This document shows, piece after piece, positions 1,025 through 23,876 of a stretch of DNA of 33,590 bases. The translations under genes were made by a program, and so were the position numbers. Source of the stretch: a virus. The notes beneath the pieces were generated by a model. It searched no databases. It was not told the origin of the DNA and saw only the letters and a list, made by a program, of their open reading frames with translations. Each line of letters opens with the position of its first letter. The stretch's first letter is position 1. Location of the stretch: positions 1 through 33,590 of IMG/VR virus record IMGVR_UViG_3300032224_000160; one strand, 5' to 3'.

Positions 1025-1141
1025 ATGAAAGAAACACTAGGAATGCTTAAATTCTTCTTTATTTCAGTACCTGTATTTTGTATAGTCTATTTAATTATGC
1101 TATCTTTATGCAAAATCAAAGACCTATGTGGGAAAAAATAA
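1025..1141 (+). CDS. 38-residue single-span membrane peptide
   Basis: The ATG at 1025 directly follows a copy of the leader AAAACAAATAACC and opens a 38-codon frame. Residues about 8-28 form one hydrophobic segment (FFFISVPVFCIVYLIMLSLC), and a short basic tail follows (KIKDLCGKK). It overlaps the start of the tail chaperone gene. The leader and the clean membrane-peptide composition support a real gene. Function is unknown. Confidence 0.55.
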   Translation: MKETLGMLKFFFISVPVFCIVYLIMLSLCKIKDLCGKK

Positions 1142-1797
1142 GTGTATGGCAATACCAACAGATTTATACTGCTCTTAATTCTAAAGAGAAGGATGCAACA
1201 GATTTAGACCTAGAAGTTAAATTAGTAGGCATAGTCAACAATATGACTGAAATGCAAATAGATAGCCTTCCTTTAAACGAATATAAAGAGTTGAGTAAAA
1301 CCATTACTTTTTTAAATGAGCCGATTAAAGGCACTCCTACGAAGCATATAGCCATATCTAGGAGTAGAAGGTACAGAATTAACTACGATATTAGCAAGAT
1401 GCCATTCGCAAGGTATATTGAAAGCAAGGTATTTAGTGAGGATTTATATGGCAACCTGCATAAGTTAGCAGCGACAATGGTAATACCACAAAAAAGAAAG
1501 CTAGGCTTTTGGGTTGACCAACCATATGATGCAAGTAAGCATCAGGAGTATTCTAATGATATGCTTGAAGCTAAGTTTGTAGATGTTTATCACTCGTTGG
1601 TTTTTTTTTATCAAGTATACAGAAATTGGATAGAAGTTTCACAGGATTATTTGGTGAACAAAATGAAGGAAGCAGGGATGCAGGAGGACAAAGCGAAAGA
1701 GGTGGCAGCAAATTTATGCAGTATTTTGGATGGCAGTATTCAGCCAAACTTATTGCCGAGTACGAAAATTGCACAGTTACGGAGGTCTATGATATGA
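1126..1797 (+). CDS. tail assembly chaperone, G-like product
   Basis: This 223-residue protein runs from ATG 1126 (MWEKISVWQYQQIY). An in-frame ATG (1108) and a TTG (1078) lie further upstream but overlap the preceding gene more. It is helix-rich and looks like the phage lambda G class of tail chaperones, which coat the tape measure during tail assembly. Codon use is typical up to about 1710 and then turns unusual (CCG, ACG, CGG), exactly where a second frame becomes natural coding sequence. That transition coincides with a -1 slippery heptamer. The last 27 residues are therefore probably present only in the unshifted product. The family assignment rests on position and overlap architecture. 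Confidence 0.65.
   Translation: MWEKISVWQYQQIYTALNSKEKDATDLDLEVKLVGIVNNMTEMQIDSLPLNEYKELSKTITFLNEPIKGTPTKHIAISRSRRYRINYDISKMPFARYIESKVFSEDLYGNLHKLAATMVIPQKRKLGFWVDQPYDASKHQEYSNDMLEAKFVDVYHSLVFFYQVYRNWIEVSQDYLVNKMKEAGMQEDKAKEVAANLCSILDGSIQPNLLPSTKIAQLRRSMI
1710..1716 (+). other. putative programmed -1 frameshift site (A AAT TTA)
   Basis: The bases A AAT TTA sit in the X XXY YYZ register of the upstream frame (codons GCA AAT TTA). Slippage by -1 makes ATG 1716-1718 the next codon, so the fusion would read ...VAANL-MQYFGWQ... and total 251 residues. A AAU UUA is the gag-pro shift site of Rous sarcoma virus. Shine-Dalgarno-like AGGAGG (1682-1687) and AGAGGTGG (1698-1705), rare in this genome, lie just upstream. 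A short TGGC/GCCA hairpin (1731-1746) lies downstream but looks weak. Confidence 0.7.
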
Positions 1798-1880
1798 GTA
1801 CAATAGAGTGCTTGAATAACTTATCATATCTAAAAGCAAAGACAGATTTTGATAATGAACAGATAAAGAAAATAAGATAG
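1716..1880 (+). CDS. tail assembly chaperone T domain (frameshift extension)
   Basis: This 54-codon frame begins with ATG 1716, which overlaps the slippery heptamer, and ends at TAG 1878-1880. Residues such as YSAKLIAEYENCTVTEVYDM use the genome's preferred codons, while the overlapping frame does not. By analogy with lambda G/GT it would be made mainly as a -1 fusion to the upstream protein. The T part would bind the major tail protein while the G part coats the tape measure. Independent initiation at ATG 1716 is possible but lacks the usual A-rich leader. Confidence 0.6.
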   Translation: MQYFGWQYSAKLIAEYENCTVTEVYDMSTIECLNNLSYLKAKTDFDNEQIKKIR

Positions 1881-3850: not shown

Positions 3851-5955
3851 TGATTAGCACAGAAATTTATATAGAAGATTATAGATTAGACTTATTACAA
3901 AATATAAGTACAGAGTTTAATTATACTATTGATGATATTGTAGATTTTGGTTCTAGGAATACTTCTTTCTCAAAGACTATAAACATAGCAGGTAATTCTA
4001 CTAACAATAGAATCTTTGGTTTTGTATTTGACTTAGGTAATGCAAACTTTACGGATAATACTTTCCCAAATGTTAACTATAATTTTAATGCTAGTAAATC
4101 TGCTAAGTGTAGAATATTTATAGATAAGATACAAGTATTTAAAGGCACATTAAGAATATTAGAAATAGTTATTGATAATAATAAGATAGAATATCAATGT
4201 TCTGTCTTTGGTGAGTTAGGTGGTTTTATATCTGCATTAGGTAATAAAAGATTAACAGGTAATGAAAATTCAAAAGATGATTTAGATTTTAGCGCATATG
4301 ACCATACTTTTATACACGAGAATATAACCCCTAGTTGGGAAGTATCAGGTGCTAGAGGAACTAATAATAGTTCAGGATATGGTTCAGGTTATTATTATCC
4401 ATTGATTGACTATGGAACATATAGTTCAGATAAATTAGATTATGATGTAATGACATTTAGACCTGCATTATTTGTAAAAGAATATTTAGAAAAGATATTT
4501 GCAGGAAGTGGTTATACTTATGACTTTCCTTTATTAAATACAGACCCATTTAAGAGATTAATAATCCCACATAATCAAAAAGTATTAACAACGGTAAGCA
4601 ATACTCAATTACAATCTACTCCTAATGCTACAACTTATACAGGTTCAAGTACAACTATACCAATAGGTTTTACTAATACTACTTTAGGTAATTTTACATA
4701 TGGAAGCAATACATATATTTATACAGGTGCATCATCTAAGGTAATGAATTTAGATTTTAAATTAGTTGGTTTATATACTGCAGGTGGAATAGCTACACTT
4801 AATGTTAAAAAGGCAATGGTTACTATTGGAAGTTATTATATTGGTGCGCCATTTGCAGGACATTATTTTACTGCTAATATTAATCTAACAGGAATAACTT
4901 TTAATCCAAGTGATAGTTTGACTTTCTCTTTAGATTGGACAAGTAGTTCATCTAGTTATAGCTTACAAGTATTTTCAGGTGGCAGTTTAAATTTAAGTAC
5001 TACAAGTTCAGATGTAGTTCCTTTAAATTATAACGAAGCTATTAAAATAAACAATGCTATACCTAAAGGAATATTTCAAAAGGATTTCTTTTTAAGCATT
5101 TGTAAGATGTATAATCTATATGTCTATGATGATATATTTACAGAGAAAAAGATATTTATAAAACCATACATAGACTTTTATCCTACAACAAGTGATAATG
5201 CTTTAGATTGGTCTAATAAAATAGACAGGTCTAAGCCATTAAGTATAAAACCAATGAGTGAACTAAATGCAAGATACTACCAATTCAAATACAAAGATGA
5301 TAATGATTACTATAATGAAAGCTATAAAAAGAAATATAATGAGAACTATGGTGATAGGTTATTTGATACTCTATATGACTTTAGTAAAGATACAGAATCA
5401 CTTGAGGTAATATTTGCATCTAGCCCATTAATACAAGCAACAGGTAGAGATAAGAGAATAACACAAATATTAAAGTTATCTGATAGTAATACTAAAGAAC
5501 AACAAATGGATAGTGTTATAAGAATAATGCAAGTGCAAAAAATAATAGGTGTAACAAGTTGGCATATACACGCACAAAATAGTAGCGGTAATTTAGTAAC
5601 ATTAACAAGCTATGGTTATGCAGGTCATTTGCATTTTAATGGAAGTGGAATACCTGATGAAGATATAAACTTTGGTGCGCCTAAAGAAGTTTATATAACA
5701 ACAACATCATATCCTACTACTAATTTATTTAATGCCTATCATAGTGATTATATGGCAGAGATAACAAGTAAAGATAGTAAGCTATTAAGTTGTTATGCTT
5801 TACTAAATACTAATGATATTAATACATTAGACTTTAGTAAGTTTATATGGATAGATGGAGTATTATTTAGATTGAATAAAGTAGAAGGATTTAATCCTAT
5901 GGAATACAATACAACAAAATTAAGTTTATTAAAAGTAATTGAAACAACATACTAA
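3850..5955 (+). CDS. large tail protein, hub/baseplate-like
   Basis: This 701-residue protein begins MISTEIYIEDYRLDLLQ. Residues about 15-60 (DDIVDFGSRNTSFSKTINIA, NNRIFGFVF) match a recurrent N-terminal module of large Bacteroidetes-phage tail proteins. A Ser/Thr/Gly-rich stretch (about 240-395) looks like an inserted beta-sandwich. The C-terminal half is Tyr- and Asn-rich, with a YLYVYDDIFTEKKIFIKP-like strand region typical of baseplate hubs. It starts on the stop codon of the preceding gene and ends on the start of the tape measure. A hub role is inferred from size and neighbours. Confidence 0.5.
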   Translation: MISTEIYIEDYRLDLLQNISTEFNYTIDDIVDFGSRNTSFSKTINIAGNSTNNRIFGFVFDLGNANFTDNTFPNVNYNFNASKSAKCRIFIDKIQVFKGTLRILEIVIDNNKIEYQCSVFGELGGFISALGNKRLTGNENSKDDLDFSAYDHTFIHENITPSWEVSGARGTNNSSGYGSGYYYPLIDYGTYSSDKLDYDVMTFRPALFVKEYLEKIFAGSGYTYDFPLLNTDPFKRLIIPHNQKVLTTVSNTQLQSTPNATTYTGSSTTIPIGFTNTTLGNFTYGSNTYIYTGASSKVMNLDFKLVGLYTAGGIATLNVKKAMVTIGSYYIGAPFAGHYFTANINLTGITFNPSDSLTFSLDWTSSSSSYSLQVFSGGSLNLSTTSSDVVPLNYNEAIKINNAIPKGIFQKDFFLSICKMYNLYVYDDIFTEKKIFIKPYIDFYPTTSDNALDWSNKIDRSKPLSIKPMSELNARYYQFKYKDDNDYYNESYKKKYNENYGDRLFDTLYDFSKDTESLEVIFASSPLIQATGRDKRITQILKLSDSNTKEQQMDSVIRIMQVQKIIGVTSWHIHAQNSSGNLVTLTSYGYAGHLHFNGSGIPDEDINFGAPKEVYITTTSYPTTNLFNAYHSDYMAEITSKDSKLLSCYALLNTNDINTLDFSKFIWIDGVLFRLNKVEGFNPMEYNTTKLSLLKVIETTY

Positions 5956-7655
5956 TGGCAACAGAAAATTATGATTTAAATATTAATGTCAAAACCAATG
6001 CTGAAGGTTCAGTAGGTTCACTTAAAAAGCAACTTAGAGAAGCACAGGCAGAGGTTGCTTTATTATCTGATAAGTTTGGAGCAACATCACAACAAGCATC
6101 TTTAGCAGCAAAAAAAGCAGCCGAATTAAAAGATAGAATAGGTGATGCAAAAGCATTAACAGATGCCTTTAATCCTGATGCTAAGTTTAAATCTCTTACT
6201 GCTTCTTTATCAGGTGTTGCAGGTGGATTTGGTGCAGTACAAGGAGCAATGGCTTTATTTGGTGCTGAAAATGATAATGTCCAAAAGACATTATTAAAGG
6301 TTCAATCTGCAATGGCTTTATCACAAGGTTTACAGGCAGTTGGTGAAAGTATTGATAGTTTTAAAAACTTAGGTACAGTTATTAAAACACAAGTAGTATC
6401 TGCATTTAGTACTTTAAGAGGTGCTATTATAGCAACAGGAGTTGGTGCATTAGCAATTGGTATAGGTTTATTAGTTGCAAACTTTGAGAAGGTTAAAGAA
6501 ACTATTAATAATCTTTTTCCATCATTAGGTGAGTTTGCTGATAAAGTTAAAGGTATAGTTCAAACAGTTACAGATTGGGCAGGTATAACAAGTCAAGCTG
6601 CAAGAAATCAAGATGATTTAAAAAAAGCAACTGAAGCAAGTATATTTTCTTTAGACCAAAGTATTAAGATTCTTCAATCACAAGATGGAAAAGAAGCAAA
6701 AATTTATGATTTAAAAAAGCAAAGAATTAAAGCACAAATATCTTTATTAAAGGATGAAAAGGATGAAACAATAAGGAAAAGAGTAGAGTTAAATACCGAA
6801 TTAACTATACTTGATAATGAAGAGCAAAAAAGAAAAGATAAAAAAGCTGAGGAAGAAAGAAAGAAAGCACAAAAGTTAGAAGATGAAAAAAGAGCATTTA
6901 ATTTAAGAGCAAAATTACAAACACAACAAGATGATTTAGCATTAGCAGAAGATGGTAAAAAATTACAAGCAGAAGCAGATAAGGCAGATGCTGATGCAGC
7001 AAAAGCTGCAGAAGATGATAGAATTAGAGGTCTACAATATATAACTGATAGAACTATTGAGGTTAACAAAATTAGAAAAGATTCAGATGATAATGCTTTA
7101 GCAAATAAAAAAGCAAATGATGCTGCAGTATTAGAAGCACAATATCAATTAGAAGATGCTAAATTTGCTGCAGTTAGTGCAGGTTTAGGATTGTTAGAAT
7201 CATTAGCAGGTAAGAATGAAGCATTAGCAAATACAATATTCATTGTTGATAGAGCAATGGCAATAGCTAAAGTTGTAGTAGATACACAAAGAGAAATAGC
7301 AGGTTATTATGCAAATCCTTTATGGTCAGCATTTCCTGATGGTGGTTTAACTGTAAAAACTGCAGCAGCAACAGGTGCTAAAATTAGAGCAGGAGTTAGT
7401 ATAGCAACAATAGCAGCAACATCTATAGCTAAATTTAAAGGAGGTGGTTCTGCAGGAGCATCTGTAGGTGTACCTAGTATGTCTACTGCAGCACCAATTA
7501 CCCCACAATTACCAACTGCAACTACTACAAATATAAGTCAACAATCAATTAATGATATAGGCAACAATGCAGTAAGAGCATATGTAGTTGAAAGTGATGT
7601 AACAAGCAGTCAAGATAGAATAACTGCAATAAGACAAAGAGCAAGATTTAGTTAA
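5955..7655 (+). CDS. tape measure protein
   Basis: This 566-residue protein sets tail length in siphoviruses. Residues 15-70 are Ala/Lys/Glu-rich helix. Residues about 82-105 are Gly/Ala-rich. A strong hydrophobic segment (IIATGVGALAIGIGLLVANF) lies at about 158-177. A long charged coiled coil spans roughly 225-345, and a second Ala-rich hydrophobic stretch lies near 430-500. These are hallmark tape-measure features. At about 0.15 nm per residue, the family rule would predict a tail near 85 nm. It starts at the stop of the preceding gene. Its place upstream of the protease and capsid genes is unusual. Confidence 0.75.
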   Translation: MATENYDLNINVKTNAEGSVGSLKKQLREAQAEVALLSDKFGATSQQASLAAKKAAELKDRIGDAKALTDAFNPDAKFKSLTASLSGVAGGFGAVQGAMALFGAENDNVQKTLLKVQSAMALSQGLQAVGESIDSFKNLGTVIKTQVVSAFSTLRGAIIATGVGALAIGIGLLVANFEKVKETINNLFPSLGEFADKVKGIVQTVTDWAGITSQAARNQDDLKKATEASIFSLDQSIKILQSQDGKEAKIYDLKKQRIKAQISLLKDEKDETIRKRVELNTELTILDNEEQKRKDKKAEEERKKAQKLEDEKRAFNLRAKLQTQQDDLALAEDGKKLQAEADKADADAAKAAEDDRIRGLQYITDRTIEVNKIRKDSDDNALANKKANDAAVLEAQYQLEDAKFAAVSAGLGLLESLAGKNEALANTIFIVDRAMAIAKVVVDTQREIAGYYANPLWSAFPDGGLTVKTAAATGAKIRAGVSIATIAATSIAKFKGGGSAGASVGVPSMSTAAPITPQLPTATTTNISQQSINDIGNNAVRAYVVESDVTSSQDRITAIRQRARFS

Positions 7656-7675: not shown

Positions 7676-8269
7676 ATGAGTATGGAATTACCTTTATATA
7701 TGTTGGAAATATCAGATAATTTATTAGATGATGCAGAGGTGCAATTTGTATCATTAGTTGATAGACCTGCAATTCAAAAGAATTGGAATGCCTTTAAAAA
7801 TGAACAAAAGTTTCAAATCATTAGCGAAGATAAGCATATCATTAGTGGTTGCGCTATGTTGGCTGACACGCCTATTTTTAGAAGTGATGCTAGTTTCGGT
7901 GATTATTATGTGGCTTTTTCTAAAGATACTATTAGAAAAATTGTACAGAAATACTTTAAAAAAGGCTATCAAAACAATGTAAACCTAATGCACGACCCTA
8001 ATCAAATTGAAACAGGGGTAACTATGTTTGAAAGTTTTATTAGTGATAAGACTAGAGGCATATCACCAATGAAAGGTTTTGAAGATGCACCTGATGGTAG
8101 TTGGTTTTGTTCTATGTTGGTAGAAAATGATGCAGTATGGGAGCAAGTTAAAGCAGGTAAGATTAACGGATTCTCTATTGAGGGTATATTTAATTATACT
8201 CCTAAAGCCAATCAAGACCAAGTTAAGATGCAAAAGATAAAAGACATATTAGAACAGATTGAGTTCTAA
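7676..8269 (+). CDS. XkdF-like prohead protease (Peptidase_S78_2 type)
   Basis: This 197-residue head maturation protease matches the XkdF class: IISGCAMLADTPIFR (55-69), YYVAFSKDTIRKI (77-89), NLMHDPNQ with candidate catalytic His106, PDGSWFCSMLVENDAVWEQV (139-158), and GFSIEG with candidate nucleophile Ser167. It would cleave scaffold and possibly the capsid N-terminus inside the prohead. It sits directly before the scaffold and major capsid genes, the canonical order. An in-frame ATG two codons downstream (MELPLYM) is an alternative start. Confidence 0.85.
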   Translation: MSMELPLYMLEISDNLLDDAEVQFVSLVDRPAIQKNWNAFKNEQKFQIISEDKHIISGCAMLADTPIFRSDASFGDYYVAFSKDTIRKIVQKYFKKGYQNNVNLMHDPNQIETGVTMFESFISDKTRGISPMKGFEDAPDGSWFCSMLVENDAVWEQVKAGKINGFSIEGIFNYTPKANQDQVKMQKIKDILEQIEF

Positions 8270-23014: not shown

Positions 23015-23280
23015 AAATTAAAGTTATATATAGAAAACTTGGTAAGGAGCAGGCTTATGGAATTTCATCAAGTGATGGGGTAATAGAGATTGATGAAAGG
23101 CTGCGTGGAAAAAAGGCAATGGAAATTTTAATACACGAGCTGATGCATCTGACTAATCCTAAAGATTGTGAAAAAACTATAATTAAAAAAAGCATAATCT
23201 TAACTAAAATCCTTTGGCAAGAGGGATATAGAAAAATAGATGATACAATAGACCTTCCATTACAGGATGGCAGCATTTAA
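23011..23280 (+). CDS. small HExxH metallopeptidase-like protein
   Basis: This 89-residue protein starts at GTG 23011, which overlaps the preceding TGA (GTGA). A single zinc-protease motif, HELMH (His42, Glu43, His46), sits in a helix after a beta hairpin (GVIEIDERLRGKKAMEILI). The third ligand is not obvious. It resembles the minimal core of SprT/ImmA-type peptidases. It could act as a phage-encoded protease or be a non-catalytic remnant. It ends the transcription unit before the regulatory region. Confidence 0.6.
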   Translation: MKIKVIYRKLGKEQAYGISSSDGVIEIDERLRGKKAMEILIHELMHLTNPKDCEKTIIKKSIILTKILWQEGYRKIDDTIDLPLQDGSI

Positions 23281-23295
23281 CTAAATTCTTTAGTA

Positions 23296-23329
23296 TGTCC
23301 GGTTATCTGTCCGGACAAAATATCGGACA
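23296..23329 (+). promoter_or_regulatory. 34-bp dyad with TGTCCG half-sites, operator candidate
   Basis: TGTCCGG (23296-23302), the perfect palindrome TGTCCGGACA (23308-23317) and TCGGACA (23323-23329) form one symmetrical array centred at 23312.5. It can also be read as two overlapping 22-bp dyads offset by 12 bp. No T tract follows, so it is not a terminator. It lies about 60 bases upstream of the -33 element of the replication-module promoter. Confidence 0.6.
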
Positions 23330-23330
23330 A

Positions 23331-23363
23331 TTACCGTTTATCATTTATATTTACCGCTTATAA
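23331..23363 (+). repeat. pair of 20-bp-spaced TTACCG repeats
   Basis: TTACCGTTTATCA (23331) and TTACCGCTTATAA (23351) are direct repeats exactly 20 bp apart, about two helical turns. The same pair, differing only by transitions, lies at 33461-33493 before another promoter. Position well upstream of -33 suggests a regulator site. Confidence 0.65.
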
Positions 23364-23389
23364 AATTTCATAAAAAATTGGGTATAATT

Positions 23390-23421
23390 TTTGGATAATA
23401 CGAGGATAACATTTATTTTTG
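23390..23421 (+). promoter_or_regulatory. Bacteroidetes-type promoter for the replication module
   Basis: TTTG (23390-23393) and TATTTTTG (23414-23421) match the -33 TTTG and -7 TAnnTTTG consensus with a 20-base spacer. Transcription would start near 23428, leaving a leader of about 18 bases before ATG 23446. Confidence 0.8.
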
Positions 23422-23445
23422 CTTCATAAACAAACTAAAAAAATT

Positions 23446-23643
23446 ATGAAAAAAGTAGAATTTGTACAAGAAACAAAACAAAATGGAGGATGGACTTTTT
23501 ATTACACAACGATTGATTCTTTCTTTGTAAGTGAATCAGGAAGTTCTATTAAAGAGGAAGCCTACGAAAAGTTTATTATCCTTGCAAATGGTGGTAGCTT
23601 ATCACCGATTAAAACAATTTTAGAAACTAAAACTATTGACTAA
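23446..23643 (+). CDS. first gene of the replication operon, hypothetical
   Basis: This 65-residue protein starts at ATG 23446 (MKKVEFVQETKQNGGWTFYY). A TTG at 23419 extends the frame but lies inside the promoter -7 element, so I reject it. The product looks like a small beta-sheet protein followed by a helix (SIKEEAYEKFIILANGG). No family is recognised beyond its position as an early phage gene. It shares TAATG with the next gene. Confidence 0.65.
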   Translation: MKKVEFVQETKQNGGWTFYYTTIDSFFVSESGSSIKEEAYEKFIILANGGSLSPIKTILETKTID

Positions 23644-23876
23644 TGGACTATCAATTAATGAAATTAGGCGACAACCTAAACTATTGGAGATGGAAATATA
23701 AGAATTGCCACAAATTTTTTAAGGCAGAATATTATATAATGTACGAAAAAGCTAAGGAAGAATATAGCGAATATTACAAAGCTAAATATCCTGATGCTAA
23801 AATAGAACCAAAAATAGCAAGACCATTTATAAGATTAAGTGATACTACTGAAGTATTTGAAAACTATGAATATTAA
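23643..23876 (+). CDS. hypothetical early protein
   Basis: This 77-residue lysine- and tyrosine-rich, probably helical protein includes LNYWRWKYKNCHKFFKAEYY, then KAKEEYSEYYKAKYPDA. No family is recognised. It is coupled to the preceding gene by a TAATG overlap and followed by the ERF gene, suggesting a role in DNA metabolism. Confidence 0.6.
   Translation: MDYQLMKLGDNLNYWRWKYKNCHKFFKAEYYIMYEKAKEEYSEYYKAKYPDAKIEPKIARPFIRLSDTTEVFENYEY

Follow-up and report, generated by a model that had tools for sequence, protein, structure and literature searches.

Introduction

In phage lambda, the tail assembly chaperones gpG and gpGT have a common N-terminal part, and the longer product acquires its T domain via a −1 ribosomal shift (PMC5009743). 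Such chaperone frameshifts are well described in lambda-like phages, and we found none described for Bacteroidota phages in the open-access literature. The slip heptamer of lambda is G GGA AAG. At A/T runs transcribed in E. coli and Buchnera, insertions predominate and become exponentially more frequent as the run lengthens (PMC5574713), and a 9-T run that is conserved among homologs makes the use of transcriptional slippage very likely according to Baranov et al. (PMC1088944).

Here we describe a locus in a stretch of 33,590 bases from one virus record (the window, meaning the whole stretch analysed). Like lambda G/GT, it would encode a pair of proteins with a shared N-terminus, and its neighbours are tail genes, with the tape measure gene further downstream. 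It differs from lambda in that the candidate slip site is a homopolymer of nine T's (T9), where lambda has a mixed heptamer, and in that the shift would occur 62 codons before the G stop and a conserved tail specific to G is dual-coded with T. Also unlike lambda, it has no detectable similarity in sequence or in solved structures to known chaperones.

Results and Discussion

Layout of the Locus

An ATG at 1126 of the window starts a frame that closes at TGA 1795-1797, and the −1 frame stays open up to TAG 1878-1880. Both frames had been recognised in an earlier sequence-only reading of this DNA, which joined them by a −1 shift at the heptamer AAATTTA, and both are present. Normal decoding of 1126-1797 would give G (223 aa), and slippage on the nine T's at 1601-1609 would move a fraction of the product to the −1 frame to yield GT, which would have 251 aa whether the shift occurred at T9 or at AAATTTA. 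If G and GT are both made, 1602-1797 is read in both frames. The T9 run is the longest homopolymer in the window and lies about 100 nt upstream of AAATTTA; neither it nor the long overlap coded in two frames had been noticed in the sequence-only reading. The features are as follows.

1126..1797 (stop included), + strand: G, the zero-frame product, 223 aa; an ORF with a homologous G domain in hundreds of relatives
1126-1600, + strand: G N-domain, part of G
1601..1609, + strand: T9, the putative slip run, GTT TTT TTT TAT, with an in-register T TTT TTT at 1602-1608
1602..1880, + strand: −1 frame continuation, the C-terminal 92 residues of the predicted GT, FFLSSIQKLDRSFTGLFGEQ...KKIR, with stop TAG; open in every relative, with purifying selection
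1126 to 1880, + strand: predicted GT, 251 aa in total
1610-1794, + strand: G-specific C-terminal tail, with a pattern conserved in 36 diverse rows
1610..1797, + strand: two-frame overlap, frame 0 encoding the G tail and −1 the linker and the start of T
1660..1706, + strand: variable Gly/Ser/Glu-rich linker of the −1 frame, carrying AGGAGG and AGAGGTGG
1710..1716, + strand: AAATTTA heptamer, most likely Lys-Phe codons of the already shifted frame
1716..1877, + strand: T domain core, 54 residues from ATG 1716, with a GW motif and a YLK.K pattern in the alignment
5955..7655, + strand: probable tape measure protein, 566 aa, matched by a tape-measure PHROG (E=1.9e-10) and followed by the head protease gene
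7676-8266: head protease gene, from protease PHROG matches

Conservation of the T9 Run

Public virus contigs were scanned with the protein and with alignments, and hundreds of relatives were found. After removal of duplicates, 246 distinct contexts held both parts, and T was in the −1 frame in 240 of them. The run is kept in all 240 split relatives, as exactly T9 in 238 and as T10 in 2, where the longer run results from a substitution and not from an insertion, the preceding Val codon being now TTT. We consider, with a probability of about 0.9, that the real −1 shift site that would yield G and GT is the T9 run at 1601-1609 and not AAATTTA. The comparisons show conservation of the run, selection in both frames, and natural fusions; that slippage takes place, the machine that slips and the product ratio are what we infer. 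The expected junction is HSLVFF-LSSIQKLDR; the junction VAANL-MQYFG predicted earlier finds no support. The shifted-frame sequence after the run includes LSSIQK and LDRSFTGLFGEQ.

Selection in the Two Frames

Substitutions were counted over 34 distinct sequences joined in a spanning tree. In the zero frame, synonymous changes amounted to 7-9 per site over 1126-1600 and dropped to about 0 at the run. Over 1610-1660, the N/S ratio was 0.25 in the −1 frame versus 1.12 in frame 0, and over 1798-1880 it was 0.10 in the −1 frame; the other two frames gave ratios of 1.1-5.5 in these two stretches. The most variable stretch in both frames is 1660-1710, which corresponds to the Gly/Ser/Glu linker. The −1 frame is thus protein-constrained from the T9 run onward across relatives: it does not gain its coding character just after the AAATTTA heptamer, as had been proposed, but is constrained already from 1601-1609.

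In all 240 split relatives, the zero frame meets no stop until 43-84 codons past the run. When −1 synonymous codons were re-drawn for 77 sequences, a zero frame of the observed length was open in a median of 0 and at most 1.25% of the draws. The zero-frame tail also has a conserved pattern of its own, YQVYRNWI..S.DYL...M...GM....AE..V..LC.I.DG.I, in 36 diverse rows. Since the zero frame is kept open beyond chance and its tail is conserved, G is probably not merely a shortened GT but carries its own predicted helical tail.

Natural Fusions of the Two Parts

In six relatives (L050, L200, L201, L202, L203, and L204), G and T are encoded in one frame. Three of them (L050, L200, and L201, about 30% identical) are without any run and their junction reads straight through; the L050 junction was aligned across the T9 position. 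These three fusions are not assembly artefacts. In L202 (4001-4762), a T10 brings both parts in frame, and the other frame still codes the G tail. L203 (2197-3012) has a 58-nt duplication that includes the run, and in L204 (4001-4663) the run and the linker are both deleted. The latter three may be real variants or in part assembly artefacts. Together, the natural in-frame fusions, the selection in two frames, and synteny strongly support a −1 frameshift that joins the G-like and T-like parts. The proposal that the overlapping frames are joined by such a shift is thus upheld, but the site AAATTTA is most likely the wrong one.

Alternative Explanations for the T Part

A shift at A_AAT_TTA, helped by the Shine-Dalgarno-like runs, is the least probable of the explanations that we weighed. 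The heptamer is present at 1710-1716 in X XXY YYZ register, and so are the purine-rich runs AGGAGG (1682-1687) and AGAGGTGG (1698-1705), as the sequence-only reading had described. However, AAATTTA is kept in only 21 of the 240 split relatives, constraint on the protein of the −1 frame is already seen about 100 nt before it, and in the natural fusions the two parts meet at the T9 position. The corresponding position reads AAGTTTA, GGCTTTA, AACTTTA, GCTTTTA, and others elsewhere. In the shifted frame, many of these changes are silent or conservative (AAA/AAG, Lys), which suggests that this frame is already translated there. Any in-register XXXYYYZ at 30-150 nt past the T run was found in only 40/240 relatives. 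Separate frames in relatives without any slippery site had been named as an observation that would speak against the shift; the relatives are mostly without AAATTTA, and all keep another slippery run. The Shine-Dalgarno-like runs, which had been taken for stimulators as in dnaX, are variable linker codons about 70-100 nt downstream of T9, and AGGAGG is lost in many relatives. We rejected them as stimulators on the grounds that they vary and lie downstream of the likely real site.

It is very unlikely that there is no fusion and that T is a gene of its own, overlapping G and started from ATG 1716 or TTG 1626. The window does have an ATG at 1716, most relatives have a Met before the GW motif, and the TTG is kept in close relatives; this TTG, however, is forced by the zero-frame Asn-Trp. 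In the −1 frame of the window, neither ATG nor GTG occurs from its last stop (1572) up to 1716, and 24 of the 240 relatives are without ATG or GTG in the shifted frame ahead of the GW motif. Independent initiation as the sole source of T is disfavoured by these start-codon counts. The constraint on the shifted frame also reaches upstream of the product of the candidate starts, back to the run, a separate T gene would leave the conservation of T9 unexplained, and the six natural fusions also speak against it. An additional separate product of 54 residues may nevertheless be made from ATG 1716, most relatives keeping a Met nearby. Even less probable than a separate T gene is that T9 and T10 genomes coexist by phase variation at the DNA level or by assembly error, with no slippage during decoding. 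L202 would fit such a scheme, its T10 placing G and T in one frame while the alternative frame codes the G tail. Yet an inserted T is seen in only 1 of 246 distinct contexts, the split ones have exactly T9 in 238/240, and the zero-frame tail is itself conserved. A −1 shift at T9 remains the preferred reading.

P12024S and Prophages

Homologs of G were found in prophages of Bacteroidota genomes and in the cultured Nonlabens phage P12024S. The P12024S protein gp38 matched the G domain (E=7.5e-9) and is 32% identical to the prophage protein L495, and the L490/L491/L496/L485 group gave a G match with E=3.5e-12. A T9 run lies at the equivalent Phe-Phe position in P12024S and in seven prophages (L484, L485, L491, L493, L494, L495, and L496). 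These deep runs sit in codon phases 0, 1, and 2, and the GC content of the loci extends from 26 to 57%. The prophage L490 (G990:C23:390471-390950, GC 56%) has T7 in place of T9, and L500 (G919:C18:131606-132313, GC 67%) has T6G, which forms the canonical heptamer T TTT TTG; both are compatible with a ribosomal heptamer only. In L502, G and T appear to be fused in frame. The T domains have the GW motif in common, and the T profile matched prophage L493 with E=2.4e-11; its match was weak for L496 and for P12024S (E=0.007 for the latter). In prophage L482/L486 the G homolog is present and a T part was not found. A tblastn search of cultured phages with several G proteins matched only P12024S/L. 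Flavobacterium phage 6H (R9VW65) gave a weak fold match and was set aside because it is without T9.

P12024S gp38/gp39 (JQ823122) resembles the window in its homologous G domain, in the presence of CTT TTT TTT TAT at the same place, and in an SWY motif carried by the next ORF, which lies in the −1 frame. It differs by an identity of only about 24%, a shorter G tail, and the weak match of the T part. The shifted-frame sequence that follows ILFF in P12024S is LSFRERLRDLYPEL..., ahead of the annotated gp39 start. Over 23136-23830 of JQ823122 (L487), gp38 and gp39, which are annotated as two hypothetical proteins, look like the G and T half of one frameshifted chaperone joined by T9; the missing T half of P12024S would thus be filed at present as a separate hypothetical gene. 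The single extreme slip motif T9 is common to phages of freshwater metagenomes, to a marine phage in culture, and to prophages whose loci have 26-57% GC, and it offers annotators a simple rule for locating a missing T half.

Slippage by RNA Polymerase or by the Ribosome

Addition of one U by RNA polymerase would be equivalent to a −1 shift, and we lean slightly towards such slippage as the main or a contributing step. Codon shuffles of 784 other ORFs of these phages were used to obtain the expected number of runs. T9 was observed once against 13.6 expected, A9 10 times against 38.9, and A10 or longer 4 times against 24.7. A7 was not depleted, and T7 only mildly (62 observed vs 86.5 expected). 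Because other coding sequence avoids A/T runs of nine or more, RNA-polymerase slippage is modestly favoured over ribosomal −1 slippage on U_UUU_UUU, although the scarcity of long runs could instead reflect replication slippage or errors. The locus shares with the slippage of IS transposases and Thermus dnaX a length-conserved nine-base run that joins two ORFs in run-avoiding genomes (PMC1088944). It is unlike them in being a phage structural gene, in having a run of T and not of A, and in holding a ribosomal heptamer too. T9 is of conserved length in genomes that avoid such runs, and the two homologs with T7 and T6G are GC-rich.

A purely ribosomal −1 shift on U_UUU_UUU within T9, where two tRNA-Phe would slip back one base, is somewhat less probable and still a serious contender. 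The T's flanking the heptamer would then be owed solely to the encoded residues, V/L/I/F before and Y/C after. Consistent with this, the heptamer T TTT TTT at 1602-1608 fits the X XXY YYZ register, every run of the relatives contains an in-register T TTT TTN, the T7 of L490 and the T6G of L500 keep the heptamer only and seem short for polymerase slippage, and known tail chaperones shift on the ribosome (PMC5009743). But the exact length of nine is kept across three codon phases, and T7 in the heptamer register (32 observed vs 51.8 expected) is depleted no more than in another register (17 vs 25.7), while runs of at least nine are strongly avoided. Nor was a conserved stem detected downstream: 26 diverse sequences gave no consensus pseudoknot-free RNA structure to +60, and single-sequence folds downstream of the run had z values no stronger than −1.1 to −1.5. 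Likewise, no purine-rich consensus that could act as an upstream stimulator was seen in the last 24 nt up to the run end.

The odds seem about even that RNA-polymerase slippage on T9, under a run-length rule that is independent of codon register, determines the ratio of the two chaperones throughout a widespread lineage of Bacteroidota phages, and that the T7 and T6G relatives represent a switch between transcriptional and ribosomal slippage in one family. If polymerase slippage is true, transcription would be the level at which tail assembly is tuned, and with the T9, T7, and T6G relatives both slipping machines could be compared directly in one gene.

Probable Identity as a Tail Assembly Chaperone

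The locus is likely to encode a pair of tail assembly chaperones like lambda G and GT. We base this on its G/GT layout, on the tape measure gene that comes next in L050 and L500, and on a shared gene order. In L050 the tape measure gene directly follows the fused GT gene, and in L500 a tape-measure-like gene directly follows the GT gene. The window and prophage L484 share the order GT, three further genes, probable tape measure, protease, and major head protein, so that the pair lies among tail genes and upstream of the tape measure gene, as chaperone genes do. As expected of a chaperone of this kind, GT would bind the tape measure protein by its G part and the tail tube by its T part, and would be absent from the virion.

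No recognised chaperone family was found with Pfam and PHROGs, and searches of solved structures by sequence, Foldseek, and VIA-align gave no convincing relative; a small annotated tail assembly chaperone was matched over 55 residues by Foldseek (E=0.6). The predicted fold of G (pLDDT 83) resembles those of numerous uncharacterised proteins of phages, P12024S gp38 among them; the fold of the fused form, modelled for L202 (pLDDT 79), matches several proteins of similar length.

Other Features of the Window

A leader, AACAAATAAC(C/T)TATG, occurs three times exactly in the window, at 189-203, 473-487, and 1013-1027, each time ending in ATG. With up to two mismatches there are 7 matches versus 0.82 expected, and the leader may serve this phage as a start or promoter context. 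The neighbouring small ORFs 201-416 and 485-823 both begin with ATGAAAACAGCAATG and may share a duplicated start region.
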